Assembly (NCBI RefSeq): GCF_019175365.1
Contig: NZ_CP059572.1
Coordinates: forward strand, 4,650,001 to 4,714,000
Direction of reading: 5' to 3'
Source of the DNA: Actinomadura graeca
GTDB lineage: Bacteria; Actinomycetota; Actinomycetes; Streptosporangiales; Streptosporangiaceae
DNA length: 64,000 nt
The notes beneath the pieces were generated by a model that had not been told where the DNA came from, made no database searches, and saw only the letters and a list, made by a program, of their open reading frames with translations. The position numbers and the translations under genes are program-made. Position 1 is the first letter of the stretch. Each line of letters begins with the position of its first letter. Below are positions 13,926 to 62,804 of this stretch, piece after piece.

Positions 13926-14905
13926 CACGCCCGGCACGTCCCCGCCTCCCGGTCGCCCCGCCCCCTGACCGCGCACATCCCGGCCCAGGGGGACCCGCCC
14001 GTCCCCGCCACGCGGGCGAACGCTCCCGCATTCCTGTAATCCGGCCCGCTGCGCGTGGCCGACGCCGATCGTCGTCTCCCACGCGGCGTCGCCCAGGACG
14101 CGACAGCCCCTTCCCAAAGCGATAGACGCCATCGCTCATAGGACACGGCGATCCGGCTGACCAGTGAGCAAGCCACACGCCGCTCGATCTCCCGACGGCT
14201 GCCGTCAATCACGACGATGCCGCCCCGGCCACGAGCGAGCCCGCCACGCATCCTGTACGGCGGCGAGCGCCGCGCGCTGCCATGCAGCGGAACCCACTCT
14301 CCAGATGCCGAACGAGCTCCCCGGTGTGGCTTCTTCCACGCCCTCCGCAAGAACACACCGACTTCTCAGATCGGTGGATGCGTGACGCCGTCAGCGCCAA
14401 GTCCGGACCTGATGTCACCAACTCTGATGACGACGGTCTTCGGTCGAAACCGCCACTGTGAAAGGGTTCCCCTGACGACCGACAGGAACCTCTCCATGAC
14501 CGGACAGACTGCTCCGTTGCCAGCTCGTCACCGCCGTAGGAACCTGCCCCAGACCGTCGCGATCAGAGGCACCGTCTCGCGATCACCTGGTGTCCTGGAG
14601 CACCTCCGAAGCGCACGCGGCGCGGTGCGGCAGGCCTTGGACCTGGACCTCGGACCTGTACCTCGGACGTAGAGCAGCAGTGGGCGCCGCAGTGGCCGGG
14701 CCAGGGCGTCCGCAGCAGTCTCACGCGCAGATTCAGCTGTGACCAGCTCACGGCCACACCGAGAGAAGTAGCGCAACGGAGCCGTCCGTCTCCCTGAAGC
14801 TCATGCGTTGCAAACAGACACACACTAGACATTTGAGTTCCCTTAAGGAACTTCAGATGCTAGGGTCACAGAGTCTCTTGAAGGAACTTCGAAAGGATGA
14901 CGCAG
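13926..14905. other. Gene-poor stretch after jag
   Basis: This roughly 980-bp segment carries no convincing gene on either strand. Its open frames lack ribosome sites and recognisable domains. It marks the left edge of an accessory block that separates jag from rsmG. Base composition seems less GC-biased than the neighbouring genes. The last 70 bp hold repeated AAGGAACTTC motifs, likely controlling the next operon. Confidence 0.5.
14836..14890 (+). promoter_or_regulatory. Candidate operator: AGTTCC palindrome and AAGGAACTTC repeat
   Basis: AGTTCC at 14836-14841 and GGAACT at 14847-14852 form an inverted repeat around CTTAA. The 10-mer AAGGAACTTC occurs at 14845-14854 and again at 14881-14890, 36 bp apart, the second copy ending 16 bases before the reductase start. 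This looks like a repressor-binding arrangement for the three-gene operon. No regulator gene is adjacent apart from the Lrp homologue at the far end. Confidence 0.45.
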
Positions 14906-15499
14906 ATGAGCAAGGTCATTTGCGCCCACGCGGTGTCGGTCGACGGTTACATCACCGGGCGTGACCCTGACGCCGGACGCGGACTGGGTGACGCGACGAT
15001 GCTGTTCGACTGGTACTTCGATGGCGACACGCCCAGCACGGTGTTCGACGGATTCAAGCTGAGCGGACCCAGCGCCCAGATCTTCGACGCCCTCGCCGGA
15101 AACGTCGGCGCGATCGTGGCGGGACGCAACACCTACGACGACTCCGAGCATTTCGGAGGCGGCAGCCCGCACCCGACGGCCCGGTTGTTCGTCCTGAGCC
15201 ACCGGACGGCCCCGCAGATCTCCGACCGGCAGACCCTGGTCACCACCGGTATCCGGGACGCGATCGCGGCGGCCCGGGAGGCCGCAGGCGACAAGAACGT
15301 CGGGCTCATGGGCGGGGGCGTCGTGACCGAGGCGCTGAAGGAGGGACTCGTCGACGAGCTGGTCCTCCACCAGGTGCCCATCCTGCTCGGCGGCGGCCGG
15401 CCCTTCTTCCAGACGCTGCCCGAGCACGTGCAGCTTCACCGGCTCGACGTCATTGCGGCGCCCGGCGTGACCCACCTGCGCTACGAGGTGGCCCGATGA
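14906..15499 (+). CDS. Dihydrofolate reductase-family / RibD C-terminal-type reductase
   Basis: This 197-aa protein resembles the stand-alone RibD C-terminal-domain (DHFR-like) reductases of actinomycetes, which bind NADPH but whose substrates are mostly unknown. It opens with [18 protein letters not shown] and has [14 protein letters not shown] and the nucleotide-binding [35 protein letters not shown]. The ATG at 14906 is preferred over one at 14897 because AAAGGA lies at proper distance only from the former. It overlaps the epimerase gene by 4 bp. It is not expected to be the essential folate enzyme. Confidence 0.85.
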
Positions 15500-16416
15500 T
15501 CCTCGTCACCGGAGGGCTCGGCATGATCGGCGCCCACACCGCCCGCGCGCTCGTCGACCTCGGCCACGAAGTCGTCGTCACGTCCCACCGCCGGACCGAG
15601 GCGCCCTCGTTCCTGGCAGGACGGGTCACCGTGGAACCCCTCGACGTCACCGACCGGGACGCCTTCCTCGCCCTCGCCGACCGCCACCCCATCAGCGACA
15701 TCGTCCACCTTGCCGGGACCATCCCCGACCAGGACCCGGTCCGCTACTTCCGTACCGACACGACCGGTCTGCTGAACGCGCTGGAGGCCGCCCGCACCTG
15801 GGGCGTGCGCAGGTTCGCCGTCGCCAGCAGCCTCGGCGTCTACATCGGCCGGACCGAGACGCGCTGGCATGAGGACCTCGCGCTGCCCACCGTCGACCTG
15901 CCGCACCTGATCATCGCCTTCAAGAAGGCCGTCGAGCCGCTCACCACCCACAGCCTCCAGGGCAGCGGCGTCCAGCCTGTCGTACTCCGGATCGGAAGCA
16001 TCTGGGGACCGTTGATGGACCCGGAATCACCGTTCAACCCCATCCCGCCCTACATCAGCGCGGCTCTGCGCGGGGAGCAGCCGCCGGCGCTGTACGCCGA
16101 CGACGGCGGCGACACCTGCTACGCACCCGACGCCGGGCGTGCCATCGCCCTGCTGACGGCCGCGGGAAGCCTGCAGCACACCACCTACAACGTCTCCAGC
16201 GGCCGACCGTTCACGAACCGCGAACTCGCCGACGCCGTGCGAGAGGTCACCCCAGCCCAGCGTTTCGATCTCCTGCCTGGACGGCCGACCGGCCCCGGCG
16301 AGAACCCCTACCTCGACATCACGCGGCTCTCCCGCGAAACCGGCTTCACTCCCACCTTCGACATGACCACGGCGGTCGCCGACTACGTCGCCTGGCGCGC
16401 CGCCAACCCCCGCTAG
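15496..16416 (+). CDS. NAD-dependent epimerase/dehydratase-like SDR protein
   Basis: This is an extended short-chain dehydrogenase-like protein of 306 aa. The N-terminal Rossmann motif TGGLGMIG is at residues 5-12, followed by an acidic DVTD pocket, HLAGT and VASSLGVY. The usual YxxxK active site is not intact. The segment reads [11 protein letters not shown], with Lys143/Lys144 present but isoleucine at the tyrosine position. The protein may therefore be inactive as a classical epimerase or use another residue. Overlap of its start (ATGA) with the reductase gene and a gap of only 13 bp to the next gene indicate one operon. The substrate cannot be predicted. Confidence 0.85.
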
Positions 16417-16429
16417 AAGGAGAACACCG

Positions 16430-16813
16430 ATGCTCGACCCCGAAGTGCGCCGCGTCCTCGACGGCACCTCGATCGCACACCTGGCCACCGTCATGCCGGA
16501 CGGCTCGCCCCACACCACCCCCGTCTACGTCGGCGCCCATGGTGACCAGATCGTCTTCTTCACCGGCCCGGGCATGCGCAAAGCCCGCAACCTGCGCCGC
16601 GACCCCCGGCTGGCGTTGTCCATCGCACCGGTCGACAACCCCTTCCAGCCCGTCGTCATTCGCGGACGGGTCGTCGACTGGCTCGACGGCGACAGCGCCT
16701 GGGAGATCATCGACGGCCTGGCCATGAAGTACACCGGCTCGCCCTACCCCCGAGGACAGGAGCGCGTCGTAGCCGTGATCGAACCGGAACGGCAGACCGT
16801 CGGCGTCGCCTGA
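16430..16813 (+). CDS. PPOX-class (F420/FMN) split-barrel oxidoreductase
   Basis: This small 127-aa protein belongs to the pyridoxamine-phosphate-oxidase-like split barrel family. In actinomycetes many short members use coenzyme F420. Its opening, VRRVLDGTSIAHLATVMPDGSPHTTPVYV, and the later GMRKARNLRRDPRLALSI and YTGSPYPRGQERVVAVIEPE are typical. AGAAGGAG precedes the ATG by about 8 bases. As the third gene of the reductase-epimerase operon it may act on the same small molecule. The cofactor is inferred, not shown. Confidence 0.88.
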   Translation: MLDPEVRRVLDGTSIAHLATVMPDGSPHTTPVYVGAHGDQIVFFTGPGMRKARNLRRDPRLALSIAPVDNPFQPVVIRGRVVDWLDGDSAWEIIDGLAMKYTGSPYPRGQERVVAVIEPERQTVGVA

Positions 16814-16850
16814 CCAGCCCCGAGAGGCGCACCACCAACGGCCCGCGTCC

Positions 16851-17303
16851 TCAGGTGGGAAGTGGACGGTCGCTCACGATGTGCTTCATGACGAGAGTGG
16901 AGTTCAACCGCTGCACGCCCGGCAGTGCCGACAGCACATCGTCTTCCAACTCCTGGTAGGCGGTCAGGTCCGCTGTGACGATACGCAGCAGATAGTCAGG
17001 GTCCCCGAAGAGCCGCTGAGCCTGCACCACCTCCGGCACCTGGGCGACGGCGGCCTCGAAGCCGAGCAAGGTCTCGCGGTCCTCCTGGCGCATGGTCACG
17101 AACACCAACGCCTGGAACGTGAGACCGAGCGCGGTGGGATTGACCACCGCCCGATAGCCGCGGATGGTCCCGTCGCGTTCCAACTCCCTCAGCCGCCGAT
17201 GGCACGGCGACACGCTGAGCCCGACTCGCGCCGCCAACTCCGTGATCGTTAGGCGACCGTCCTCCTGAAGCGCAGCAAGGATCTTCCGATTGATCGCATC
17301 CAT
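16851..17303 (-). CDS. Lrp/AsnC-family transcriptional regulator
   Basis: This 150-aa regulator has an N-terminal winged helix-turn-helix (AINRKILAALQEDGRLTITELAARVGLSVSPCHRRLRELE) and a C-terminal amino-acid-sensing RAM domain (LGLTFQALVFVTMRQ... to LVMKHIVSD). It reads away from the LysE-type exporter across a 109-bp gap. This divergent pair is a common arrangement in which an Lrp protein senses an amino acid and controls its export. Its stop is 37 bp from the convergent PPOX gene. Confidence 0.93.
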   Translation of the reverse strand: MDAINRKILAALQEDGRLTITELAARVGLSVSPCHRRLRELERDGTIRGYRAVVNPTALGLTFQALVFVTMRQEDRETLLGFEAAVAQVPEVVQAQRLFGDPDYLLRIVTADLTAYQELEDDVLSALPGVQRLNSTLVMKHIVSDRPLPT

Positions 17304-17412
17304 ATAGAAGATCCTTCCACTACAGGCGCGCTATCGAGCAAAAGTTAGAACCATCTTCGCGCTGATCGAAAGTATCCTCCCCTCAACTGCCGTTTCGGGG
17401 GAGGTTGTACTC

Positions 17413-20400
17413 ATGGCCGTCGGTTCCCTGCTCGCTTTCTGGACGGTCGCCCTGCTGCTCATCGTCGTCCCGGGGGCGGACTGGGCGTTCATCATCAGCG
17501 CCGGACTACGAGGCCGCTCGGTGCTCTCGGCGGTCGGCGGGCTGGTCGTCGGCTACGCCCTGGTCACCCTTGTCGTCGCAGCCGGCGTCGGCGCCCTCGT
17601 CGCTGGATCCCCCGCTCTGCTGACCGGCCTGACGATCGTCGGTGGCCTCTACCTGATGTGGCATGGCGCAACGACCTTCGTACAGCCCGCGTCCCCTCAC
17701 CCAGCCAAATCCGACAACCCACCAGACAACGCCTCGCGGCCAGCATCCGCCACCGCGACGCACCAGATACCGGCGCCCCCGGCGCCGAGCACCATGTCGC
17801 CTCGGGCATCGCGACCCGCGTCGAGTACCGCTTCGCCGACCCTGGGGAACATCTCCTTGCTCACGGCGCCGGGTACCGTACCGCCTACCACGCTGCGAAC
17901 GACGTCGGAAGCCGCGCCGCATGGCCCGCGCACAAAGTCGGGCCCTGCGACGCGCGCGGTGTCGCACCGTCTTCCGCCGTCGAGCCTCGTGCCCCGGACG
18001 GTGTCTGGTGTCGCCTTGCGCCCAATGTCGCCTACCACCTCACGCTTGGCGTCGGACACCGCGTTGCCTACGTTGAACACCGGGTTGCGTGCCCTGCGGA
18101 CGCGGTCGAGCTCGATGTTGCGCGGGATGTGGAGCGGTGCTTTGCCGCCGTTGAGCATCGTGTCGCCGACAAACCCTGGTGTCACCTTGCGTCCGAGGTG
18201 GCCGATCACCTTCCGCTCGGTAATGAGCACCGCGCTGCGTAGCCTGCGCGGGTGGTCGAGCTCTGTGTTGCGTGGGATGTGGAGCGGCGCTTCGCCGGCG
18301 TTGAGCTTCGTGTCGCCGATGGACTGTGGTGTCGCGTTGCGTCCAAGGTCGCCCAGTACCTCCCGCTCGGTGATGAGCACCGCGCTGCTTACCGTGTCGG
18401 GCTCCGCGTTGCGCAGCCTGCGCGCGAAGTCGGGTGCCGCGACGCGCGCGGTGTCGGGCATCGCCTCGCGGCCGACGTCCGGTACCGCCTTGCGTCCGAC
18501 GACGTCGAGCACCGCGTCGCGGCCAGCGTCGAACGCCGCCTTGCGGCTGCCGTCGGGTACAGCATCGCGGTCAGCGTTGAGCACCATGTCCCGGACAGCG
18601 TCGATTACTTCACCGCGTATCGCGTGGCTGATCGTCTCGCGGCCCACGTCGGATACCGCTTCGCGGACCATAAGGAACGTCCCCTTGCCCAGGGCGCCGG
18701 GTACCGCGTCGTGTGGCCAGCGCACGAGATCGGACACTGTCTCGCGCGCGCCGTCGGCTACCGCGTCGCGAACGCCGTGGGGTACCGCGTCGCGTGGCCT
18801 GCGCGCGAGGTCGGACACTGTCTCGCGCGCGCCGTCGGCTACCGCGTCGCGAACGCCGTGGGGTACCGCGTCGCGTGGCCTGCGCGCGAGTTTGGACGCT
18901 GCGTCGCGCGCGTCGTCGAGCGCTGCGTCGCGGTCCGCATCGAGCACCGCGTTGCGACTGACGTCCGTCACCGCTTGGCGGTGGACGTCGAGTGCCGCCG
19001 TGCGCGCGTTGTCGGGCATTACGCGGCGGTCGGCGTTGACCACCGCGTCGAGCATGGTGTCGAGGACCATGTCGCGCCCGACGTCGCGCACCGTGTCGCG
19101 GCCCGCACCGGGTACCGCTTGTCCGGCGGTGTGGGGAAGCCCCCTGCGTATTGTGACGGGTACCGCGTCGCCTGGCCTGCGCGCGAAGTCAGCCACTCTG
19201 TCACACGCGAAGACGGAAGCTGCGTGCGCACCGTCGAGCATCAGTTTGCGGCCAGCGTCGAGCGCTGCGCTGCGGTTGACGTCCATTGCCGCTTGGCGGT
19301 GGGCGTCGAGCGCTGCCTTGCGCGCGTTGCCGTGCATCGCGCCGCGGTCGGCGTTGACCACCGCGTCGGGCATGGTGTCGAGCACCTCGTTCCGCTCGAC
19401 GTCGCGCGCCACGTCGCAGCCAGTGTTGGGTACCGCTTGGCGGACGGTGGGGGGCGGCCTCTTGCGTATCGTGTCGGGCTCCGTGTCGCGTGGCCTGTGC
19501 GCGAGGTCGGACGCTGCGTCGCGCGCGTCGTCGAGCGCTGCGTCGCAGCCAGTGTTGGGTACCGCTTGGCGGACGGTGTGGGGCGGCCTCTTGCGTATCG
19601 TGTCGGGCTCCGTGTCGCGTGGCCTGTGCGCGAAGTCGAGCGCTGCGTCGCGCGCGTCGTCGAGCGCTGCGTCGCGGTCCGTGTCGAGCGCCGCGTTGCG
19701 ACTGACAGTCGTTACCGCCTGGCGGTGGGCGTCGAGCGCTGCCTTGCGCGCGTTGCCGTGCATCGCGCCGCGGTCGGCGTCGATTGCTGCGCCGCGCATG
19801 CTGTCGCGCCCGACGTCGCGCATCGTTTCGCGGCCAGTGTTGGGTACCGCTCGGCGGACGGTGTGGAGCAGCTCCCTGCGTACCGTGGCGGGTACCGCAT
19901 CGCGTGGCTTGCGCGTGGAGTCGGGCGCTCTGTCGCGCGCGGTGTGGGGCACCGCCTTGCGGCTGACGTCGGGCACTGCGTTGCAGTTGGGGTCGGCTAC
20001 CGCGTTCCGGTCGAAGTCGGGTGTCGTGTTGCGAACGGGTCGAGGTGCCGTGCTGCGGCCGGCATCGGGCAGAGTTTTGTACTTCGTCCTGGGGAGACGG
20101 CTGCGACCCTCCTTTGTTTGGTATGGCACTTTTGTTACGAGCCCGCCCGGGGTGTCGTGTGGTGGCTCGGCTGATTTGCCGGGCGTGATGGTGGGCGGGT
20201 CTCTGCGGGATGAATCGGTTGACGGGATGTGCGGCTTTCAGGGCGAAGGGGGGCCTGGCCTGCCGTCCGGGGATCTGCTTGAAGCAGTGAGCGACGCGGA
20301 CAGGAGCGCTGACCGGAGAGCTTTCTTGCGTGGGATCGGTGTCAGCGGGCTTAACCCCAAGGGATTGTTGATCTTCCTCGCGTTGCTTCCCCAGTTCACG

Positions 20401-20625
20401 GACGCGGGCGGCTCGTGGCCGATCGCCGTGCAGATCGGCGTGCTTGGGTCGGCCTTCATGGCCACGTGCGCCTTGTTCTACCTGTGCTTGGGCACGCTTA
20501 CGCGCACGGCTCTGCACTCGCGGCCCGCTGCGGCGCGTCTGATCAGCCGGTTGTCGGGCACTGCCATGGTCGGCATCGGAGCGTGGCTACTGATTGATCA
20601 CCTCGTGGGCCAGGCTCTGGGCTGA
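17413..20625 (+). CDS. LysE/RhtB-type amino-acid exporter with a giant in-frame repeat insertion
   Basis: The ends are a normal LysE-family exporter. Residues 1-95 carry the first three membrane segments (WTVALLLIVVPGADWAFIIS, a VVGYALVTLVV helix and LTIVGGLYLMWHGA). Residues about 970-1070 carry the last three (GLNPKGLLIFLALLPQF, ALFYLCLGTL, MVGIGAWLLIDHL). Family members are about 205 aa, but here the frame runs 1070 codons. Some 860 residues of Ser/Thr/Ala/Arg-rich octapeptide repeats (such as SATASRTP) fill the loop between segments three and four. The frame is never broken. The gene could encode a transporter with an enormous loop, or be a disrupted exporter whose insertion happens to lack stops. 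It is divergent from an Lrp regulator. Confidence 0.75.
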   Translation: MAVGSLLAFWTVALLLIVVPGADWAFIISAGLRGRSVLSAVGGLVVGYALVTLVVAAGVGALVAGSPALLTGLTIVGGLYLMWHGATTFVQPASPHPAKSDNPPDNASRPASATATHQIPAPPAPSTMSPRASRPASSTASPTLGNISLLTAPGTVPPTTLRTTSEAAPHGPRTKSGPATRAVSHRLPPSSLVPRTVSGVALRPMSPTTSRLASDTALPTLNTGLRALRTRSSSMLRGMWSGALPPLSIVSPTNPGVTLRPRWPITFRSVMSTALRSLRGWSSSVLRGMWSGASPALSFVSPMDCGVALRPRSPSTSRSVMSTALLTVSGSALRSLRAKSGAATRAVSGIASRPTSGTALRPTTSSTASRPASNAALRLPSGTASRSALSTMSRTASITSPRIAWLIVSRPTSDTASRTIRNVPLPRAPGTASCGQRTRSDTVSRAPSATASRTPWGTASRGLRARSDTVSRAPSATASRTPWGTASRGLRASLDAASRASSSAASRSASSTALRLTSVTAWRWTSSAAVRALSGITRRSALTTASSMVSRTMSRPTSRTVSRPAPGTACPAVWGSPLRIVTGTASPGLRAKSATLSHAKTEAACAPSSISLRPASSAALRLTSIAAWRWASSAALRALPCIAPRSALTTASGMVSSTSFRSTSRATSQPVLGTAWRTVGGGLLRIVSGSVSRGLCARSDAASRASSSAASQPVLGTAWRTVWGGLLRIVSGSVSRGLCAKSSAASRASSSAASRSVSSAALRLTVVTAWRWASSAALRALPCIAPRSASIAAPRMLSRPTSRIVSRPVLGTARRTVWSSSLRTVAGTASRGLRVESGALSRAVWGTALRLTSGTALQLGSATAFRSKSGVVLRTGRGAVLRPASGRVLYFVLGRRLRPSFVWYGTFVTSPPGVSCGGSADLPGVMVGGSLRDESVDGMCGFQGEGGPGLPSGDLLEAVSDADRSADRRAFLRGIGVSGLNPKGLLIFLALLPQFTDAGGSWPIAVQIGVLGSAFMATCALFYLCLGTLTRTALHSRPAAARLISRLSGTAMVGIGAWLLIDHLVGQALG
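17780..20060 (+). repeat. 24-bp tandem repeat array (minisatellite) inside the exporter gene
   Basis: This is about 2.3 kb of degenerate 24-bp units, roughly 95 copies. Read in the frame offset from the exporter, they give an octapeptide close to V-G-Y-R-V-A-x-x or V-E-H-R-V-A-x-D. In the exporter frame they give xxTASRxx, and on the minus strand R-D-A-V-P-D-x-x. Some units are 33 bp, encoding WPAREVGRC-like variants. Higher-order copies exist. One 81-bp block beginning near 18729 recurs exactly near 18810, and a CAGCCAGTGTTGGGTACC block near 19417 recurs about 129 bp later. The array is open in one plus frame and in a minus frame for over 800 codons. Confidence 0.9.
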
Positions 20626-20933
20626 GGGCGGCGGCCGCGGGGCCGGAGGGTGAGAGGCCCGTGGGGTGATGTCGTCGCGACGCTGCGGTTGCTCCCGGGG
20701 TGAAGAACAGCGGCACTGTTGTGATGCACCTGGTGTGGGTGCTCGCCCTCGCGGACGAGGGCAATGGCCTCGCCGTCCAGGCCGCGGGGGCTGCTGATCG
20801 GAATGGGTGGGATCCTGCGAGAGCGGTGGGAGGGCGGCGATGAGGCTGGTTGTGGTTGGTAGTCCCTGGGGGGTGCTGCGGAAGGCGTTCGGGCTCATGT
20901 GTCAATGGTCGGGGCTGGCGGAGATGCCGGGAA

Positions 20934-20956
20934 GTAGAACGGAATTCTGTGGATAG
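20934..20956 (+). repeat. Dispersed 23-bp element, copy 1
   Basis: GTAGAAC is followed by four bases (GGAA) and TTCTGTGGATAG. It matches two other copies in this window at GTAGAAC and TTCTGTGGATA. It contains an imperfect AGAAC/ATTCT dyad and a TGTGGATAG resembling a DnaA box. It lies in the gap after the exporter gene. Confidence 0.6.
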
Positions 20957-20962
20957 GCATGG

Positions 20963-21045
20963 GCAGGGACCCCGTGTCCTGGCCGATACGGGGTCCCTGC
21001 GGAGCTCGGTGTGTACCGCCGCCCACTACACACCGAGCCGGTTTT
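20963..21045. terminator. Two adjacent transcription-terminator hairpins
   Basis: GCAGGGACCCCGT at 20963-20975 pairs perfectly with ACGGGGTCCCTGC at 20988-21000. GCTCGGTGTGTA at 21004-21015 pairs with TACACACCGAGC at 21027-21038, followed by CGGTTTT. They lie just beyond the stop of the minus-strand DUF6458 gene and downstream of the exporter, so they can serve both directions. Confidence 0.75.
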
Positions 21046-21048
21046 CGC

Positions 21049-21498
21049 CTACCTTCGTCCGCGTCCGCGTGGGATTCGGCGAGTGTTGGACGCGACCGAC
21101 GTGGTGTTCTGCTCTGCCGGATCCTGGGCGAGGGCGGGATCCTGCGCGTAGGCCGGATCCTGGGCCAGGTGTCCGTGGGATGTGGCCTCGTCCGCCGGGT
21201 GCTCGATCACCCGCTCGACACGCTGGGCCGGGCCGCCGCCGGGTGGCGGGTCCTGAATGATGTGCTCTTCGCGGACGATCGTCCCCGGCTCGTCGCCATA
21301 TGCCGGGTCCGTGCCGACCACTCGACCGGCGCGACGCCGGGGGCGGGTGTACTTGAGAGTGAAGCCCATACTGATCAGCCCGACCAGGATCAGGATCCAG
21401 CCGACCAGGTGAATGTCAACGCCGCTGAGATCGACGCGAAGGGCGAACGCGAGGATCGCGCCGAGGGCGATGAACGCAAGACTGACTCCGATTCCCAT
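21049..21498 (-). CDS. DUF6458 family small membrane protein
   Basis: This 149-aa protein has two N-terminal membrane segments (GIGVSLAFIALGAILAFAL and IHLVGWILILVGLISMGFTL) joined by VDLSGVD. That pattern is typical of DUF6458 proteins found widely in actinomycetes. A basic stretch (KYTRPRRRAGR) and a polar cytoplasmic tail follow, with short AQDPA repeats near residues 110-128. CGGAAGGAG lies just upstream of the ATG at 21498. The function is unknown. It is divergent from rsmG. Confidence 0.8.
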   Translation of the reverse strand: MGIGVSLAFIALGAILAFALRVDLSGVDIHLVGWILILVGLISMGFTLKYTRPRRRAGRVVGTDPAYGDEPGTIVREEHIIQDPPPGGGPAQRVERVIEHPADEATSHGHLAQDPAYAQDPALAQDPAEQNTTSVASNTRRIPRGRGRR

Positions 21499-22363: not shown

Positions 22364-23532
22364 GCACGGGACCAGGGCCGGGCTGGCCTGACCGCGCCGA
22401 CGAATCCCCCGACGACAAGCCGTCCGGACAAGCCGGACCCGGTGAAGGCATGGACGGCCAGGACAAGGCTGTTCCGGACGAGGCCACCGCCGGACAGCCG
22501 GGGGAGGCGGGCCCGGGCACCGCGCCGTCCGGACACGCCATGTGGAGTACCACGACGTCCGGTACCGCGGAGAACGTCGGTTATGTGCCGACGCACGTCG
22601 GCGCGCAACCGCCGGGTCCGCGCAAGGGACCATCTCAGGGGGAGTCAGAACTCGTGCGCGAGGCGCTCAAGGACGCCAAGGTTTCACATGAAACACCGGT
22701 CACCGGACTCAAGGTGATGTCGGGCCGCAGGGACAAGGAGTGGCCTCGGCCGGGTCAGTGCCGGATCATCACGATCGCCAACCAGAAGGGCGGCGTCGGC
22801 AAGACCACCAGCTCGGTGAACCTTGCCGCTTCCCTCGCCATGCACGGCGCCCAGGTACTCGTGGTCGACCTCGACCCGCAAGGGAACGCCTCCACCGCGT
22901 TGGGAGTCGAGCACCACGCCGAGATCCCCTCGATCTACGACGTGCTGATCGAGGACATGGCACTGGCCGACATCGTCGTCCCGGCTCCTGAGATCCCCAA
23001 CCTCTTCTGCGCGCCGGCGACGCTCAACCTCGCCGGCGCGGAGATCGAACTCGTCTCCAAGGTGGCCCGGGAGTCGCGGCTGCGCCGCGCGTTGGACGCC
23101 TACGAGACCGAGAAGTTCGACTATGTACTGATCGACTGCCCGCCTTCGCTCGGCCTCCTCACGGTGAACGCCCTCGTCGGTGGCGACGAGCTGCTCATCC
23201 CGATCCAGTGCGAGTACTACGCGCTGGAGGGACTCGGTCAGCTGATCCGCACCGTCGACCTCGTGAAGGCGCACCTCAATCCGAAGCTGCACGTCACGAC
23301 GATCCTGCTGACGATGTACGACGCCCGGACGCGCCTCGCCGCGCAGGTAGCGGAGGACGTCCGGAACCATTTCGGCGACGTCGTCCTCAACACCGTGATC
23401 CCCCGCAGCGTGCGGGTCTCCGAGGCACCGAGCTACGGCCAATCCGTCATGACCTACGATCCCGGTTCGAGCGGTGCGCTCGCCTACAGTGAGGCCGCCT
23501 CGGAGATGGCTCACCGAGGAGCGGCCAAGTGA
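22360..23532 (+). CDS. parA: Chromosome partitioning ATPase ParA
   Basis: ParA is a Walker-type ATPase that moves ParB-bound origins. The protein is 390 aa. The first 130 residues are a Pro/Gly-rich extension common in actinomycetes. The deviant Walker A KGGVGKTT is at 143-150, followed by [11 protein letters not shown] and [18 protein letters not shown] parS-like site is embedded in the coding sequence at 22681-22694 (codons for VSHET). The gene overlaps rsmG and parB by 4 bp each, giving a coupled operon. Confidence 0.96.
22681..22694. other. parS-like site inside parA
   Basis: GTTTCACATGAAAC differs by one base from the bacterial parS consensus GTTTCACGTGAAAC. It lies in parA coding sequence and is palindromic except at the centre. 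ParB would be the expected binder. Confidence 0.75.
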
Positions 23533-24521
23533 GCCAGCAGCGACGCGGCCTGGGCAAGGGGCTGGGTGCCCTCATCCCCACCGCCCCGCCTCCTCCCACG
23601 CCCGAGGAACCGGGCGCTTCGGGTGAGCCGGGCTTCCCGGGTGGCCCGCACGGCCCTGGGTCGGACGTCGGCCCGGACATGAAGCCGGTCGCCGGCGCCC
23701 ATTTCGCCGAGCTGCCCGTCCGGTCGATCACGGTGAACCCGCGTCAGCCGCGTGAGCATTTCGACGAGCAGGCCCTGGAGGAACTGGCCGAGTCGATCGG
23801 CATCGTAGGACTCCTCCAGCCGATCGTCGTCCGTAAGGCGGACGGTCCCGGCGAGCACGACTATGAGCTCATCATGGGCGAGCGCCGCTGGCGGGCGTCC
23901 CAGATGGCCGGGCTGGACGTCATCCCCGCCATCGTCCGCGACACCGGTGACAACGACTTGCTCCGTGACGCGCTCATGGAGAACCTGCACCGGCAGCAAC
24001 TGAACCCCCTCGAAGAGGCCGCCGCCTATCAGCAGCTCCTCCAGGATTTCGGCGCCACCCATGAGCAGCTCGCCGGTCGGATCGGGCGTTCCCGTCCGCA
24101 CATCACGAACACGCTGCGGCTCCTGAACCTGCCGCCCGCGGTGCAGCGACGTGTTGCCGCGGGAGTTCTGTCCGCCGGGCACGCGCGGGCGCTGTTGTCG
24201 CTGGACAGCGTTGAGGCGCAGGAGCACCTGGCGCAGCGCATCGTCCAGGAGGGTTTGTCCGTCCGGGCGCTGGAGGAGCTCATCGCCCTCCGCGAGGTGG
24301 ACGACGGGCCGAAGGCTCCGCGGCAGGGACGTCGCAAGCAGCCCGTCGCACCGGGCCTCAAGGAGATCGCGGACCGGCTCTCCGACCGCTACGAGACACG
24401 CGTCCGCGTCGACATGGGCCGCAGCAAGGGCAAGATCGTCGTCGAGTTCGCCACCCTGGAGGACCTCGACCGCATCATCAAGTCGATGGTTCCCGATGAG
24501 GCCGTGGACGAGCCGGAGTAG
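23529..24521 (+). CDS. parB: Chromosome partitioning protein ParB
   Basis: ParB is a CTP-binding clamp that loads at parS and spreads. The protein is 330 aa from a GTG overlapping the parA stop (GTGA). The opening [16 protein letters not shown] is family-typical. The N-terminal domain carries [21 protein letters not shown] and the CTP-binding [26 protein letters not shown] and the helix-turn-helix ([29 protein letters not shown]) follow. The C-terminal dimer domain ends near [21 protein letters not shown] strong terminator lies 15 bp after the stop. Confidence 0.96.
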
Positions 24522-24536
24522 CCTTCCTTGGCGTTG

Positions 24537-24572
24537 AGCGCCCCGGGCCTGGTGGCCTTCGGGGCGCTTTTT
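24537..24572 (+). terminator. Rho-independent terminator of the rsmG-parAB operon
   Basis: AGCGCCCCG at 24537-24545 pairs with CGGGGCGCT at 24560-24568, followed by a run of five T residues to 24572. The stem is nine pairs of mainly G-C. It lies immediately after the parB stop. Confidence 0.9.
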
Positions 24573-25646
24573 GCTTCTGCTTAAGTCTTTGTTTGGCGGG
24601 TGCGGATCTCGGTGGGCTCAGCGGCCAGTGCCGACCGGTGACTTCTCGGTCGAGGCCCTCCCCCCGTCGTCTCGCTGGTCGCTCCCGCCGGGTCGCCTTC
24701 TCTGCCTTCTCTGTGTCCGCCTGTGCGGACGGAGGTAAGAGGTGAAAACGGGCGATGGTTGGTGCGCCTGGCCGTCCATCCTCTTCGGTGCCGGGTAGCG
24801 GCGGAGGTCTCCCCCGGATGGGCCGGTCGGCCTAGCGCGTTTGACCCGGCTGTCGCGTCCGCCTTGCTCGCCCAGCGGTCGTCGTCACGATCCGGCGCGC
24901 GACAGATGACCGGTCGACACTTTGGATTACCGACAGCGGGTGGTCGTCGGGGCGGAGCGGTGACGGGTCAGGATCGGTGGGTGGGCAGCTTCTGATCTGA
25001 CGGTGACAAGCCCGTTCGAGCGCGGCTGACGGGGGCCGCACGGTGATCCATGGCTTTGGTGGCTACTGGACGAGGTGGGCTCGTGTGGTGGACGACCGTT
25101 GGTAGGTGATGGGCTGCGACCGTCTCATGGGTGTCGTCGGCTCGCCGCTTTGCTGTGATTTGCGGTGACGATGCTCGCTCGCAAGCATCTCTTGGCCGAC
25201 CCGCTCCGATGCAGGCGGCCTGTGGTGGAGATCCAGTGCTGACCGGCCGCGCTCGACGGATCGGTCACTTCGGTTTGGGATGAGCGATCTGCTTGGGTTG
25301 CGCTCGACGCTCAGAGCTCCCTAAGTAGCGGTGCTGATGAGAGGGCGTCATCTGCCATGGTCGTGACCGCTAGGACGAAGATCCGCTGCGGCTCGAGGTC
25401 GAGCCGTTGCGGTCAGGTCCTCCAGCGCCTTATCTACCGCGGACTTTAGGGCAGACTGCCCGCAGCGGATCGTGTGCACGAACGACGGCGCCGACGACTT
25501 CGGCTCGACAAGGTGGTCGAATTCTGGTGGTCGAGGTGGCCTGGAGTCGACGACGAGTTGGGGGCTCGCCTCCCTTCGGGTGCGGGGCGTCAGATCGACT
25601 TCGTTTGCGGTGGGCGATCGGTGGGGCCGACAGGAGGCGCTGGGAG

Positions 25647-25660
25647 GTTTCACGGGAAAC
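25647..25660. other. parS-like site
   Basis: GTTTCACGGGAAAC differs from the parS consensus by one base. It lies about 1.1 kb downstream of parB in noncoding sequence. Confidence 0.75.
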
Positions 25661-26066
25661 ACGTGAGGCGATCTTGGAGGGCCGTGCGGGCTTTTCCTGG
25701 GCGAGCGGCATCCGCCGCCATCGTCAGGTGCCGCTGCGTGGGTGCCAGCTCAATGGTTATACGGGTCCGGGGTGGGCCCGGGGGCGGGGCCTCTTCGGTG
25801 CCATCCGGTGAGCCGGGCTTGTGGGCTCTATTGCAGGGCGAACCCTTGAGCGTCCGCCTCGTAGGGGCGGCAAGTAGATCGCTGACGGCTGCCCTCCGGC
25901 CCGGCCCACCCGCACTTGATGGGAACTCGCGTCTCGATCGCGGTCGGATGAGGCTCGCCGTGTTTCGGTTTTGACCGGCACAGGGTGATTTGCGTGTCGC
26001 CTGCGGAGCAGGCATCGCCCTCGGAGACGGCCGGGCCCGGATCGTCGAGGCTAGTTCTCCTCTCAT

Positions 26067-26080
26067 GTTTCGCGTGAAAC
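26067..26080. other. parS-like site
   Basis: GTTTCGCGTGAAAC differs from the parS consensus by one base. The flanking A/T extends it to CATGTTTCGCGTGAAACATG, a 20-bp stretch palindromic except at one central pair. It lies about 1.5 kb downstream of parB in noncoding sequence. Confidence 0.8.
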
Positions 26081-26432
26081 ATGGCTTGGCTGAGTGGCAC
26101 TTGAGATGAAGCACGTGAGTACGGGTGGCCGAGCCGACGGGCAGAGAGGCGGGGAGGAGCGCGGCCGGATCCGGGTCCTCGTCTTCGCGCTTTCCGTCTT
26201 CTGGGGATGCGCGGAGCGATCTTCATTAGGGGTTGGAGGTGGCGTCTCGGAGCTAGCGCTCGCAGCGGGGGCGATCAAGGTGTGGGGAGTGCGTGATGAG
26301 CGCACGCTGGCCGCCAGGCGCTTGGAGCCGTCTGGCGGCCTTGGTGGTGGGCCATCGAGTGAGCCTGTCGGTCCTGGATCGCGCCGGGCGTCCAGGGTGG
26401 GTCGGGTTCGATTGTCTGGTCGGCTGGCGTGG

Positions 26433-27371
26433 TCAGAAGCGGGCGAGGATGAGGTCTCGGCAGACTTCGCCGAGATCGAGGCCGGCGACGCTGACGGCGC
26501 GGGGGAGAAGGCTCGTCTCTGTCATGCCGGGGGCGACGTTGACCTCAAGGAAATGAACCTCCCCCTCGTCGTCGACGATGAGGTCCGTTCGGGAGACGTC
26601 GCGGAGGCCGAGGGCGTGGTGGGCGGTCACGGCGGCGGCGGTGGCGCGTTCGGCCGCTTCGGGCGTGAGTCGAGCCGGGGTGACGAACTCGGTGTCGCCG
26701 GCGTCGTAGCGGGCGGTGTAGTCGTACAGTCCGCCAGGCGCGACGATCTCGACGGCCGGGAGGGCGGTGGCCTTTCCTCCGCGCTCGATGACGCTGACCG
26801 CGATCTCCGTCCCGGGGACGTAGCGTTCGACGAGGGCGGCGTCTCCGTACGCGAAACAGCCGACCATGGCGGCGGAGAGCTCGGACGCGTCGTGGACGGC
26901 GGAGGCACCAAGAGCCGAGCCGCCGCGGGTGGGCTTGACGAAGAGGGGGAGCCCAAGACTCCGGACGATCTGGTCCAGGACGGACGCGGCTCCGAGATCG
27001 TGGAAGACCTCTTTGGGGAGCGCGACGGAGTCGGGAGTCTGGAGTCCCGCGCGGCGGACGACGGACTTGGCGGTCGGCTTGTCCCAGGCGACCCGGCAGG
27101 CGTCCGGGCGCGCACCGATATAGCGGACATCAAGGAGCTCAAGGACATCGCGAATCGAGCCATCCTCCCCCGCCGCGCCGTGCAGGACGGGGAACACCGC
27201 ATCTGGGGGGTCGTCGGTCAAGGAGTCCAGGAGGGTGGCGTCGGCATCGCGAAGTTCGACGGGGATCTCCAGGGCGCGTAGGGCGTCCGCGACTCGTCGT
27301 CCGGAGCGGAGTGAGACCTCGCGCTCATACGACAGACCCCCAGCGAGTACGACGACATGCCCGAGTTCCAA
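26433..27371 (-). CDS. D-alanine-D-alanine ligase family protein
   Basis: This ATP-grasp protein of 312 aa would join two D-alanines for peptidoglycan synthesis if it is a true Ddl. Motifs seen are VVVLAGGLSYEREVSLRSG at the N-terminus, HGAAGEDGSI (normally HGxxGEDG), KPTRGGSALGAS for ATP binding, and EVNVAPGMTETSLLPRA near the end. The last is usually EVNTLPGMT, so the substrate loop differs slightly. The length is at the short end for the family. The TTG at 27371 has AAGGG 9 bases upstream. It is on the same strand as the aminotransferase, with a parS between them. Confidence 0.85.
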   Translation of the reverse strand: MELGHVVVLAGGLSYEREVSLRSGRRVADALRALEIPVELRDADATLLDSLTDDPPDAVFPVLHGAAGEDGSIRDVLELLDVRYIGARPDACRVAWDKPTAKSVVRRAGLQTPDSVALPKEVFHDLGAASVLDQIVRSLGLPLFVKPTRGGSALGASAVHDASELSAAMVGCFAYGDAALVERYVPGTEIAVSVIERGGKATALPAVEIVAPGGLYDYTARYDAGDTEFVTPARLTPEAAERATAAAVTAHHALGLRDVSRTDLIVDDEGEVHFLEVNVAPGMTETSLLPRAVSVAGLDLGEVCRDLILARF

Positions 27372-27418
27372 TGCAATTGCCCTTCAGAGAACGTAAAATG
27401 CGCCGGGGAGCCCGGCGC

Positions 27419-27432
27419 GTTTCACGTGAAAC
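27419..27432. other. parS site, exact consensus
   Basis: GTTTCACGTGAAAC is an exact parS palindrome. It lies in the 68-bp gap between the aminotransferase stop and the D-Ala ligase start, about 2.9 kb from parB. Confidence 0.95.
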
Positions 27433-54497: not shown

Positions 54498-57400
54498 TAA
54501 TCCAAGCCAGCCCCGACCGGAGTCCGGGTCGCAGTGGCCGGGCGGGCAGCAGGTCCCCCGTCTTGGCCGCTCAAGTGATCCGGAGTTGCCGGATGCCCAG
54601 AGCGAGGAGAATCCGGACGGCGGTCCATCACCCCTCGCCGGCGGAGCCGTCCCCGGGCCGTCCGCCGTTCCGTCTTCCGCTCCCGCGGACGGCGAGGGCG
54701 CTCTGGAACCGGACGCCACGGCCATCTTCGGCCCACCGCCGCCGTCATCCGGCGAGCACCTCTCCAGGGGGCCACAATCCCCTGGCGTCCCCGCTCGCCC
54801 TTCCGGTGACCCTCTGGCAGAGGATCCCCTCACTCCTGGCTTCATGGGCGCACCTGCGGCACCTTCCGCCGCAGATGGTCTCAGCGCCCAGTCGGGTTCG
54901 TTCCGCAGCGGGACAAGCGGGCCGGGTGCTGCGGGCGTTCCGGGCGGGCCGGGCGTTCCGAGCGGGCCGGGCGTTCCGAACGGGCTGAGTGGGGCTAGCG
55001 CGCCGCCGTCCGGTCTGCTGAACGGACCGGCCCCCTCCGCGTCCTCAGGAGCCTTCGGCATCGCCCCGGACGGGCCGAGGCCCTCTGACGGTCTCTCCAA
55101 ACCCGCGTCTACCGGTACCGGCGGTCCGTCCGTGAGCGGGCCCGCCGGTCCGAGTGGCCTGGGCACGCCTCCACCTTCGCCTCCCCCGGCCACAAGTGCG
55201 TCTGGCGGTTCGGTCAAGGACGATGCGCTGGGCAGCTTCGACACGACGCGAACCGACATAGGAAGCAGCGCTTCGAGCGCTCCCGGTGACGGTGCTGCTG
55301 TAGGTGGGCCGACGATGTCGGCGGGTCCCTCCGGCATCGGCATCCCGAATGGACTCGGCGGTGGGGGAAGCGGTGCCATCCCTTTCCCACCGCCCGGCAC
55401 CCCTGGCCCGGGTTCGTCGAGCGGGCCGACGCCGGTCACGGGCCCTGGGCGTGACATGCCGCCTAGCGGACCCGGTGTCTTCAATGCTCCGGGTCCGGTC
55501 GCCGGCCCTGGAGCTGTCGGCGGTGTGGGGCCTGGCATGGCCGCCGGGCCGCCCTCTATGAGACCGCCCGAGCGATCCGGGAGCATTCCGATCGGTGGAC
55601 CGGGCGGCCCTGTTGGGCCTAACGGACCTATTGGTCCGGGCGGCCCTGTTGGACTCGGCGGGCCCGGCGGAATGGGGCCGGGCGGTCCTGGTCCTTCTGG
55701 TTCCTTCGGGGTGGGTGGCGCAGCGCCCGGCCCCGGGTTCGGCATGCCCGGGACACCTCCCGGGCCCGGGCATCGAGCCGCCGGAGGCGGAGCCGGGCTG
55801 GCCGGTGGCCTCGGCGCGGTCAAGGCACGGCTCGCCAATGTCAGTGTTCCGGGCGTTTCGAAGAAGTCCGGCGGCAAGGGGCAGCGTGGGTCTTCTGGCC
55901 CCGGCCACCCCGGCGCCTTCTTGAGCCCCGCAGGCCCGGGTGGCCCCGGCATGCCCGGCGGCCCCGGACCCGGTGGCCCCGGTGGTCCGGGCGGGCCGGG
56001 GGGTCCTGGTGGGCCCAGCGGCCCTGGTGGGCCCGGAAAGCCTCCGGCCCGGAAGCGGAGCTTCGTCGATCATCTTCGGTCGCGGAACACGGGGTGGCGG
56101 CGTTTCATCCCCTCGTGGAAGATCGTGGCCGGCGTCTGCGCGCTCGGATTCGTCAGCTTCCTCACGCTGATCTGGGTCGCGTACGCGAACACGCCCACTC
56201 CGGCCGAGCCGACCGTGGCCGGCGTCGAGGACCAGGCGTCGATCTTCTACTTCACCGACCGCACCGAGATCGGACGGATCGGGAAGAAGCGGCAGAGCGT
56301 CGAGCTGAAGCAGGTGCCGCCGATCGTCCAGGACGCGGTGCTGGCCGCGGAGAACCGGAGCTTCCGCACCGACCCGGGTTTCTCGGTGAAGGGGACGACC
56401 CGGGCGGTGTGGGCGAACCTGACCGGCGGGTCGGGCGGCGGATCCACGATCACGCAGCAGCTCGCGAAGAACTACTACTCCGATCCGGCCAACCGGACCA
56501 TGAGCCGGAAGTTCCAGGAGCTGTTCATCTCGCTGAAGCTGGAGGACAAGTACTCCAAGGACGAGATCCTCAAGCTCTACCTGAACACCATCTACTTCGG
56601 CCGTGACACCTACGGCATCCAGGCGGCGTCCCGGGAGTACTTCGGCAAGGACGTGTGGGAGCTGAAGCCGGACCAGGCGGCCGTCCTCGGCGGGATCATC
56701 CAGAACCCGAACCGGGACCCGGGCGAGAAGGCGAACCGGGCGTGGGCGAACGAGCGGTACCAGTACACGCTCAAGGGCCTGGTCTCGATGAAGAAGCTCA
56801 GCGAGGCCGACGCGAACCGGTACATGGCGAAGCTCCCCAAGATCAACAAGGCGGGGACCGGCGACCAGCTCTACAGCGGCCAGCGCGGCTACATGCTGAT
56901 GCGGGCCAAGGAGGAGCTGCGCAGGCTGAAGATCGACAACAAGGAGCTGACGACCAAGGGCCTGCGCGTCTACACGACCTTCGACAGCAGGAAGATGAAG
57001 CAGGCCGAGCGGGCGGCGCAGCGCACCGTCCCGCAGGTGGACCCGAAGAAGCTCGCGAAGAAGAAGATCCGTGTCGGGCTGGTGTCGGTGAACACGGCCA
57101 ACGGCGAGGTCGTCGCGTTCTACGGCGGGCCGGACTACCTGGCGCAGGCGTTCGACAACGTGTGGTCTGGGTCGGCGCAGGCGGGGTCGGCGATGAAGCC
57201 GTACGTGCTGGCGACCGCGCTCAAGCAGGGCTACAGCCTGAAGAGCATGGTCGAGGGCAGGTCGATGACGCCGATCGACCCGAACGGGAACGTGGTGCCG
57301 AGGGGCACCGCGAACGCCACGGTCGTCCCGAACAGCCATGACGAGGGACCGGCGATCGACCTCGTCAAGGCGACGCAGGACTCGGTGAACACGGCGTTCC

Positions 57401-58368
57401 TCCAGCTGATGGGCAAGGTCGGCATCCCCGAGGTGATCAAGACCGAGACGGACGCGGGCATCGCGTCCGACCTGCTCAAGCCGCACTCCTGCTGCATCAA
57501 CCTCGCCCTCGGCGTCAACAACATCCGTCCGATCGAGCAGGCGGCGGGGTACGCGGCGTTCGCCAACGGCGGCGTCTACCACCAGCCGCACGTGATCCGT
57601 ACCGTCAAGATGAGCGATAACAAGACGGTGCGCCTGAAGCCGCGGTACGAGTCGCGCCGCATCTTCGACCGCAAGGTCGCGGCGAACGCGACCTACGCGA
57701 TGCAGCAGGTCATCCGGGGCGGGACCGCGACGGCGGCGGCGCTGCCGGACGGCCGTCCCGCCGCGGGCAAGACCGGCACGACCGACCGGAACGTCGCGAC
57801 GTGGTTCGTCGGGTACGTGCCGCAGATGTCGACGGCCGTCACCTTGTACAACGACGCGACCGGTCCGGACGGGAAGAAGAAGTCGCTCATCCTGCCGGGC
57901 ATCGGCGAAGTCCAAGGCGGGACGATCCCGGCCCGCATCTGGCGCACCTACATGTCGAACGCGACGCAGGGGATGAGCCCCGAGGCGTTCCCGCAGCCGG
58001 TGTGGGACGGGATCGTGCAGAGATGGGCGAAGCCACCGCCCAAGAGAGAGGACGACGGAAGGCCGCCGTGGTGCGATGGTCCGTTCGGTCAGTTCGACCC
58101 GCGGTGCCAGGACGACGACGACGGCGGTTCCGGCGACGGTGACAAGCCGCCGTGCCAGTCGCCGTTCCCGGATGGGAACTGCGACCCGAACAAGCCGCCG
58201 GGCAACCCGCCACCGCGTTGGTGGTGCGGCCTCCACCGTGGCGATCCGTCGTGCCGTTTCGGCGGCGGCGGGCGTCAGCCGCGGGCGGAGGGCACGGCGC
58301 AGCTGCTACCGCTCACAAGGCCGCCCGAACGGGCTGGGACGGCCGCTGGGAAAGGCGGTGTGAGATGA
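54493..58368 (+). CDS. Class A penicillin-binding protein (bifunctional transglycosylase/transpeptidase), copy 1
   Basis: This protein polymerises and crosslinks peptidoglycan. At 1291 aa it is unusually long. Residues 1-530 are a Gly/Pro/Ser-rich, collagen-like cytoplasmic stretch, and a membrane helix lies at about 541-565 (WKIVAGVCALGFVSFLTLIWVAY). The GT51 domain follows (LAAENRSFRTDPGF near 618, GGSTITQQLAKNYY). Its first motif has EN where most have ED. The transpeptidase has Ser899 (GSAMKPYV), SVN at 964 and KTGTT at 1093. The C-terminus is Pro/Asp/Cys-rich. The GTG start has GATGAGG upstream. The leader resembles that of the next gene, indicating tandem duplication. Confidence 0.94.
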   Translation: MSNPSQPRPESGSQWPGGQQVPRLGRSSDPELPDAQSEENPDGGPSPLAGGAVPGPSAVPSSAPADGEGALEPDATAIFGPPPPSSGEHLSRGPQSPGVPARPSGDPLAEDPLTPGFMGAPAAPSAADGLSAQSGSFRSGTSGPGAAGVPGGPGVPSGPGVPNGLSGASAPPSGLLNGPAPSASSGAFGIAPDGPRPSDGLSKPASTGTGGPSVSGPAGPSGLGTPPPSPPPATSASGGSVKDDALGSFDTTRTDIGSSASSAPGDGAAVGGPTMSAGPSGIGIPNGLGGGGSGAIPFPPPGTPGPGSSSGPTPVTGPGRDMPPSGPGVFNAPGPVAGPGAVGGVGPGMAAGPPSMRPPERSGSIPIGGPGGPVGPNGPIGPGGPVGLGGPGGMGPGGPGPSGSFGVGGAAPGPGFGMPGTPPGPGHRAAGGGAGLAGGLGAVKARLANVSVPGVSKKSGGKGQRGSSGPGHPGAFLSPAGPGGPGMPGGPGPGGPGGPGGPGGPGGPSGPGGPGKPPARKRSFVDHLRSRNTGWRRFIPSWKIVAGVCALGFVSFLTLIWVAYANTPTPAEPTVAGVEDQASIFYFTDRTEIGRIGKKRQSVELKQVPPIVQDAVLAAENRSFRTDPGFSVKGTTRAVWANLTGGSGGGSTITQQLAKNYYSDPANRTMSRKFQELFISLKLEDKYSKDEILKLYLNTIYFGRDTYGIQAASREYFGKDVWELKPDQAAVLGGIIQNPNRDPGEKANRAWANERYQYTLKGLVSMKKLSEADANRYMAKLPKINKAGTGDQLYSGQRGYMLMRAKEELRRLKIDNKELTTKGLRVYTTFDSRKMKQAERAAQRTVPQVDPKKLAKKKIRVGLVSVNTANGEVVAFYGGPDYLAQAFDNVWSGSAQAGSAMKPYVLATALKQGYSLKSMVEGRSMTPIDPNGNVVPRGTANATVVPNSHDEGPAIDLVKATQDSVNTAFLQLMGKVGIPEVIKTETDAGIASDLLKPHSCCINLALGVNNIRPIEQAAGYAAFANGGVYHQPHVIRTVKMSDNKTVRLKPRYESRRIFDRKVAANATYAMQQVIRGGTATAAALPDGRPAAGKTGTTDRNVATWFVGYVPQMSTAVTLYNDATGPDGKKKSLILPGIGEVQGGTIPARIWRTYMSNATQGMSPEAFPQPVWDGIVQRWAKPPPKREDDGRPPWCDGPFGQFDPRCQDDDDGGSGDGDKPPCQSPFPDGNCDPNKPPGNPPPRWWCGLHRGDPSCRFGGGGRQPRAEGTAQLLPLTRPPERAGTAAGKGGVR

Positions 58369-58407
58369 AGCGGGACCTCGCTCCTCCGGCCCCCCTGCCC
58401 CCACGTG

Positions 58408-58461
58408 CGCAGTACTCTCGGACGACGCACAGCCGTACCCCAGTTGATGAGGTCGCGTGAG
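58408..58461 (+). promoter_or_regulatory. Leader shared by the two PBP genes, copy 2
   Basis: This region repeats CAGTACTCTCGGACG, CGCACAG and GATGAGGTCGCGTGAG from in front of the first PBP. The copy spans the 88-bp gap between the tandem genes. Preservation between the copies suggests a functional element. Confidence 0.6.
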
Positions 58462-62698: not shown

Positions 62699-62734
62699 CC
62701 GTCCCTGTCACGTGACGGTGCCCCGTCACGTGAC
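62690..62734. promoter_or_regulatory. Three GTCACGTGAC palindromes in tandem
   Basis: The perfect 10-bp palindrome GTCACGTGAC occurs at 62690-62699, 62707-62716 and 62725-62734, spaced 17 and 18 bp apart. The first includes the stop codon of the GT87 gene. Spacing near 1.7 helical turns suggests cooperative binding or a multi-hairpin 3' end. Confidence 0.7.
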
Positions 62735-62804
62735 CGTCCTCGTTCTGGGCACATGAGCGGCGAGTGCCGCACCGCAGGAGCAATGCGCACTCGCCGGATG
62801 TCGT

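Follow-up and report, generated by a model that had tools for sequence, protein, structure and literature searches.

The window analyzed here, a 64,000-nt stretch of the Actinomadura graeca genome (contig NZ_CP059572.1), contains a LysE/RhtB-type exporter gene that carries about 95 in-frame 24-bp repeats in the loop between its third and fourth helices. The open reading frame (ORF; 17413..20625, plus strand) begins with ATG and runs for 1070 codons. It matches the LysE family profile PF01810 at 66.8 bits, against a cut-off of 25.6, in two stretches that correspond to the N-terminal and C-terminal halves of the exporter (N-half and C-half), and the linker between transmembrane helices 3 and 4 is 875 residues long (2625 nt). 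This architecture had been proposed from the letters and ORFs of the window (the original prediction), and the family profile, AlphaFold2 models and autocorrelation all agree with it. Because both halves are conserved relative to a sister gene that also carries a long insert, in the congener G024, we lean toward the view that the exporter still works and that its in-frame insert of 875 residues is a drifting tether, indifferent to its own sequence. In our best reading, the linker between the halves is a site that tolerates the growth of in-frame minisatellites.

The position of the insert was examined with AlphaFold2, run with 52 relatives. In the model of all 1070 residues, helices were placed on the N-terminal side (residues 3-18/22-32, 37-64 and 67-90) and on the C-terminal side (residues 955-979/982-995, 1004-1034 and 1038-1069), with no structured element between the two sets; residues 110-949 mostly had a predicted local distance difference test score (pLDDT) below 50. 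These helix positions leave nothing structured in between, which puts the insert between helices 3 and 4. An ordinary homologue gave a six-helix model (pLDDT 88.9) with its linker at the same place, between helices 3 and 4. The N-half (residues 1-95; 17413..17697) formed a first three-helix unit at pLDDT 76-95, and the C-half (residues 971-1070; 20323..20622), which bears a GVSGLNPK motif, a second one at pLDDT 79-95. No 19-residue window of the insert reached a hydropathy of 1.6. The 3+3 helix layout and the disorder of the insert are model predictions; no solved structure of a relative was found by sequence at E 1 or by fold at E 0.001. The layout agrees with a published description of the superfamily as a duplicated unit of three transmembrane segments (TMS), in which TMS3 and TMS4 are separated by a large hydrophilic region (PMC4608589).

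By profile score, predicted 3+3 helices and invariant residues, the protein belongs with the PF01810 family. All 26 columns that were invariant in an alignment of 52 relatives were kept in the window protein (26/26), and these columns were rechecked in a second alignment that contained it. Its length departs from the family's usual ~200 residues (1070, versus 201-276 in 86 homologues), a size that is typical rather than strictly defining. The exporter reached none of the listed NCBIfam cut-offs. Divergent from it lies an ORF for an Lrp/AsnC-type regulator (16851..17303, minus strand), which matched the NCBIfam Lrp model at E 9e-33 and 113 bits, under that model's cut-off of 233. In 48 of 50 loci, some of them duplicates, LysE has a relative of this regulator close by.

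The insert has a degenerate left edge with weaker periodicity (17698..17997; identity at lag 24 of 0.41-0.46), a core array of octapeptides rich in S, A, R and T (17998..20047), and a right spacer consisting of the array tail and a non-repetitive stretch (20048..20322). Autocorrelation over the 2625 nt was strongest at lag 24 (z 20.9), followed by lag 48 (z 16.3), lag 12 (z 12.8) and then lag 36. The count of about 95 units is an arithmetic estimate, in which the 2050-nt phased core holds about 85 x 24 and the degenerate edges add about ten. The core shows register offsets of 9 bp and higher-order copies, which Tandem Repeats Finder reported at 81 bp (92% matches), 129 bp (94%), 150 bp (84%) and 318 bp (78%); the repeated expansion first noticed as copies of 81 and about 129 bp is thereby confirmed and enlarged. 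In a cyclic 24-state model fitted to 17998-20047, all 16 register jumps were multiples of 3, and 2050 of 2050 bases lay in one phase modulo 3. The 875 residues include S 161, A 130, R 105 and T 89 and carry a net charge of +90. No Pfam family was found in the insert at cut-off, and a non-coding RNA in the array was rejected, as Rfam gave no match at gathering score in 16800-21200.

We also looked for the array elsewhere. The genome held one other match, of 30 nt (E 8.9e-4), among the best 40 of 253 candidates scored. With four candidates scored per genome, matches at E 1e-3 turned up in 35 of 64 congeners, the strongest scoring 54.5 bits over 54-71 nt, and these are taken as scattered GC-rich similarity. 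Plasmid DNA gave no match. When the whole protein was searched by tblastn, 41 plasmid records matched, none covering 80%, and the matches listed fall in the C-half region.

Both halves are under strong purifying selection relative to the G024 gene. The ratio of nonsynonymous to synonymous substitution rates (dN/dS) between the two genes was 0.111 in the N-half (bootstrap 0.049-0.209) and 0.086 in the C-half (bootstrap 0.039-0.162), values that are approximate, since dS is 0.6-0.9 and near saturation. They fall under those of all 444 (N-half) and 182 (C-half) pairs of comparable dS drawn from 35 other genes, which include the G037 gene with an 84-residue loop (L038); the medians of these pairs were 0.28 and 0.30. 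For comparison, the regulator had a dN/dS of 0.054. Amino-acid changes were divided almost equally between the branches: in the N-half, four on the window branch, four on the G024 branch and four that could be placed on neither; in the C-half, five, six and three, respectively. The bootstrap upper bounds of 0.209 and 0.162 are not those of a pseudogene whose halves have lost constraint, and we see no sign, in these sequences, of an old gene loss. The array behaves differently. Its residues drift neutrally: seven partly overlapping ungapped pairs of array copies gave a ratio of nonsynonymous to synonymous differences (pN/pS) of 1.08 in the LysE frame. There is no third-position excess, as differences at codon positions 1, 2 and 3 numbered 124, 94 and 87. 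Thus the halves are constrained and the wording of the array is free, given a dN/dS of about 0.1 versus a pN/pS of 1.08, and a net charge of +90 in the window insert versus -3 in that of G024 (read in the frame of its C-half).

Relatives were used to place the insert in context. Of 105 loci examined, 86 gave distinct proteins, 12 were duplicates, four had a stop in the stretch (L111, L120, L124 and L140) and three lacked one half (L075, L077 and L091); this set is a sample of matches, with up to 30 loci per search, whose members need not all be orthologues. The linker was 12-44 residues long in 85 of the 86 homologues and 84 residues in the remaining one, from G037. Eight of the 86 had linkers of at least 25 residues, some with short repeats by eye (L112, L131 and L081). 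In L121 the halves lie in different frames, with a linker of ordinary length. Across the family, 66 of 341 genomes were matched at E 1e-25. Within the genus, a C-half match at E 1e-15 was present in 25 of 65 genomes, a count that includes the genome of the window, for a total of 26 matches. The linker was 12-18 residues in 23 of these 26 genes; the exceptions are the window gene (875 residues), the G024 gene (1525 nt) and the G037 gene (84 residues). In the last (L038:964-1791), the loop consists largely of in-frame 15-bp units that read QPGAV, QSGAV and variants, and its contig differs from that of rsmG. Of the 26 genes examined in this one genus, three show in-frame repeat expansion at one spot, and two congeners carry repeat inserts at the same site.

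These comparisons bear on two earlier expectations. It had been argued that relatives with an uninterrupted exporter, and the repeat located elsewhere, would undo the proposal. Ordinary linkers were indeed found in 23 of the 26 genus genes, but the interruption recurs at that place in the sister gene, and elsewhere in this genome the repeat amounted to a 30-nt match. The insertion had also been described as having no known precedent, and none was encountered: no linker longer than 84 residues was seen among the 86 homologues, and the giant-loop searches, which depend on shared 5-residue words, met none. Searching proteins of about 590-1870 residues with each half returned no giant-loop relative. 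A search over proteins of about 375-1190 residues, with scoring limited to the 7996 candidates that had the most words in common, returned six matches, all N-terminal extensions or fusions with loops ordinary by eye. Among the open-access titles and abstracts listed, none described a repeat-expanded LysE loop.

The sister gene provides the closest comparison. G024 is also the nearest congener by rsmG identity (94%, followed by G059 at 93%, G020 at 91%, and G038 and G037 at 90%), and its exporter grouped with the window gene in a tree with support 0.948. There, as in the window, the regulator and exporter adjoin rsmG, and the insert occupies the same codon site. In all six stretches of 10.5-13 kb from G059, G020, G038, G037, G051 and G010, rsmG and its neighbour were present without the regulator or exporter, and no C-half match at E 1e-15 was found anywhere in G059, G020 or G038. 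The G024 insert, of 1525 nt, shows periods of 12 and 24 nt (both with z 9.7), and the residues ADRRA directly before the C-half are common to both genes. The distance between neighbouring units was 1.16 in the G024 array and 0.85 in the window array, compared with 0.88 between the two genes (117 fourfold sites). These distances are suggestive and would place the G024 array before the split and the window array on either side of it, although the copies compared may be non-adjacent and rates may differ.

We then considered the reading frames across the insert. The LysE frame has no stop in the whole insert. The original prediction had the repeat readable in three stop-free frames; this holds for the LysE frame, whereas one minus frame has a single stop, to the right of the array at 20238, and six stops occur in another plus frame of the insert, one of them inside the array (18240). 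The left edge has no stops in any plus frame, and the right spacer, among plus frames, is open in the LysE frame only. Dinucleotide shuffles led us to expect 13.4 stops in the window and 6.1 in G024, but such shuffles ignore periodicity. Under a periodic profile, the core LysE frame had 0 stops versus 2.3 expected (P 0.10), and the C-half frame of G024 had 0 versus 3.2 (P 0.04). With periodicity modelled giving only P 0.10, the open LysE frame alone is little evidence of selection. Coding in another frame was rejected: pN/pS ranged from 0.70 to 1.15 over six frames, and the two lowest values fell in stop-containing frames. An opposite-strand ORF of 810 residues (17697-20129) spans the whole array and shows no sign of selection in its frame; neither of the two long ORFs other than the exporter's matched a Pfam family at cut-off.

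Several observations weigh against a working exporter with a tolerated tether. The full model had a predicted template modelling score of 0.48 and does not demonstrate packing of the two halves on each other. Evidence for selection on the frame itself is weak, as non-gene frames are likewise stop-poor (P 0.11 for a plus frame of the window core; P 0.06 and 0.09 in G024). We estimate that the 16 register jumps were largely copied by higher-order duplication, leaving perhaps three or four independent events. The N-half and C-half of the G024 gene lie in different frames in its assembly. The C-half frame there begins before the insert and stays open through all 1525 nt, and the N-half frame closes 405 nt in, so the change sits where the frames overlap; it may be real or an assembly error, and the register model of that array has one jump that is not a multiple of three and five that are. 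Homology of the two large inserts was significant neither by alignment (local score 34; mean 28.2 and maximum 38 in 100 shuffles) nor by unit profile (forward correlation 0.39, P 0.08, with the reverse strand higher at 0.44), and their common origin is not proven. As the inserts do not align and their profiles show no significant likeness, the array may postdate the split, in which case some of the constraint may predate the array. If the origins were separate, the open frame and the intact residues would have to carry more of the case for function, and the case for a recurrent expansion site, with three separate expansions, would be stronger.

Some of these observations would also fit an exporter that is dead or was recently lost, with a minisatellite in an unneeded gene that has stayed open since GC-rich 24-bp units rarely make stops. 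On that account, the stop-free frame is mildly unexpected (P 0.10), with a non-gene plus frame as stop-poor (P 0.11); the minus frame is open through the array too, the array residues drift neutrally, the G024 gene changes frame between its halves, and 40 of 65 genus genomes have no C-half match at E 1e-15. We nevertheless regard gene death as unlikely, given a dN/dS of about 0.1 in both halves with equal change on both branches, register jumps that are all multiples of 3, and 26 of 26 invariant residues kept. The low dN/dS relative to an insert-bearing sister and the retained residues also speak against the suggestion that the repeat had removed the transporter. An artefact of assembly or repeat collapse is highly improbable: repeats are a common source of misassembly, but the contig is 8.94 Mb in a three-contig assembly, most array copies differ (median best 48-mer identity 0.81), and a sister species, assembled separately, carries an insert at this position as well.

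Two further accounts give the insert a task. A long functional loop, in which an arginine-rich tether of net charge +90 serves regulation or binds a partner or the membrane, would suit the open frame and the preponderance of S, A, R and T (161, 130, 105 and 89 of 875 residues). It is improbable in our view, because the array residues show no purifying selection (pN/pS 1.08), the G024 insert has a net charge of -3 in the C-half frame, and the insert contains no Pfam family at cut-off; the repeat-expanded regulatory loop suggested earlier is not supported by the sequence, given the neutral residues and the different chemistry of the sister insert. Alternatively, two half-proteins could be made separately and assemble, with the array as a site of chain cutting or translation restart. 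The array does lie where one three-helix unit gives way to the other, in the models and in the superfamily description cited above (PMC4608589), and both G024 halves are conserved despite lying in different frames. A simple scan for one promoter type found no promoter-like site in 17300-21000, and the window gene is a single open frame; we consider this a very improbable explanation.

We therefore return to the exporter with a tolerated tether. Slippage or unequal recombination at short direct repeats in a GC-rich linker would seed the array. Growth that keeps the frame would be tolerated if each half folds by itself and the two come together in the membrane, and growth that breaks it would usually be removed. 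The wording of the array would drift as blocks of 81-318 bp keep being recopied, and the insert would act only as a tether, predicted to be disordered. The array would be expected to vary in length among strains, and the full-length protein would be expected to export an amino acid. More tentatively, the halves may long have been evolving like two proteins joined by a self-renewing, sequence-indifferent tether (875 residues here and, in the sister, ~1.5 kb of coding-like repeat), a possible route to split proteins. Should the exporter function, almost nine hundred arbitrary residues can be accommodated where the two halves of a duplicated membrane protein join, provided that the frame remains open. 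Such a gene would be a natural test of the length and arbitrariness allowed for the segment that links both halves in a 3+3 membrane protein, and the old idea that 3+3 transporters were once two separate three-helix units would become testable in natural constructs.

The surroundings of the exporter contain ORFs that we take, by eye, to be homologues of parA, parB, rsmG, jag and yidC. Partition-site matches with at most one mismatch numbered four in 22681-27432, where none is expected by chance, and one, at 27419, was exact. From these ORFs and matches, we place the window near the replication origin. One partition-site-like sequence lies inside the parA-like ORF. The jag-like ORF is separated from the Lrp regulator by three genes (14897-16813) that are unmatched in the G024 stretch, in which ORF and regulator are direct neighbours: a 200-residue ORF at 14897 with no NCBIfam match, an epimerase-like NAD-binding protein at 15496 and an F420-dependent PPOX-class protein at 16430. 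At 62687-62743, where the end of a plus-strand ORF faces a minus-strand ORF, about three tandem 17-bp units contain the palindrome GTCACGTGAC and may serve as a terminator or as an array of operators. Several tandem repeats of 9, 18 and 27 bp, G/C-rich and coding-like, were seen in 54899-58835.

The exporter array shares features with several known systems. Repeat-number contingency (phase-variable) loci are unstable tandem repeats inside a gene. In the window gene, copy number does not switch the frame, because the array is built on 24-bp units and all register jumps (16/16) are multiples of 3; the array does not appear to be the contingency locus that the original prediction had offered as one possibility. 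Expansion of intragenic tandem repeats (minisatellites) is known in bacterial coding genes, and the array resembles these in its tandem units, whose length is a multiple of 3, in its higher-order copying and in its open frame. It differs in its place in the middle of a polytopic transporter, between conserved halves, and in its roughly 95 eroded units of neutral wording. PARCEL repeats are tandem coding repeats of microbial membrane-targeted ORFs, with 25-residue amphipathic units and dyad symmetry in the DNA (PMC2996958). The tie of tandem coding repeats to membrane proteins is common to PARCEL and the window array, whereas the window array has 8-residue units and no inverted repeats (0 pairs at minimum length 24, seed 12). 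The window protein is closest to the LysE/RhtB exporters (PF01810; TC 2.A.75/2.A.76), with which it shares both halves, the predicted 3+3 helices, the 26 invariant residues and a divergent Lrp-type regulator, and from which it is set apart by a linker of 875 residues where theirs have 12-44.

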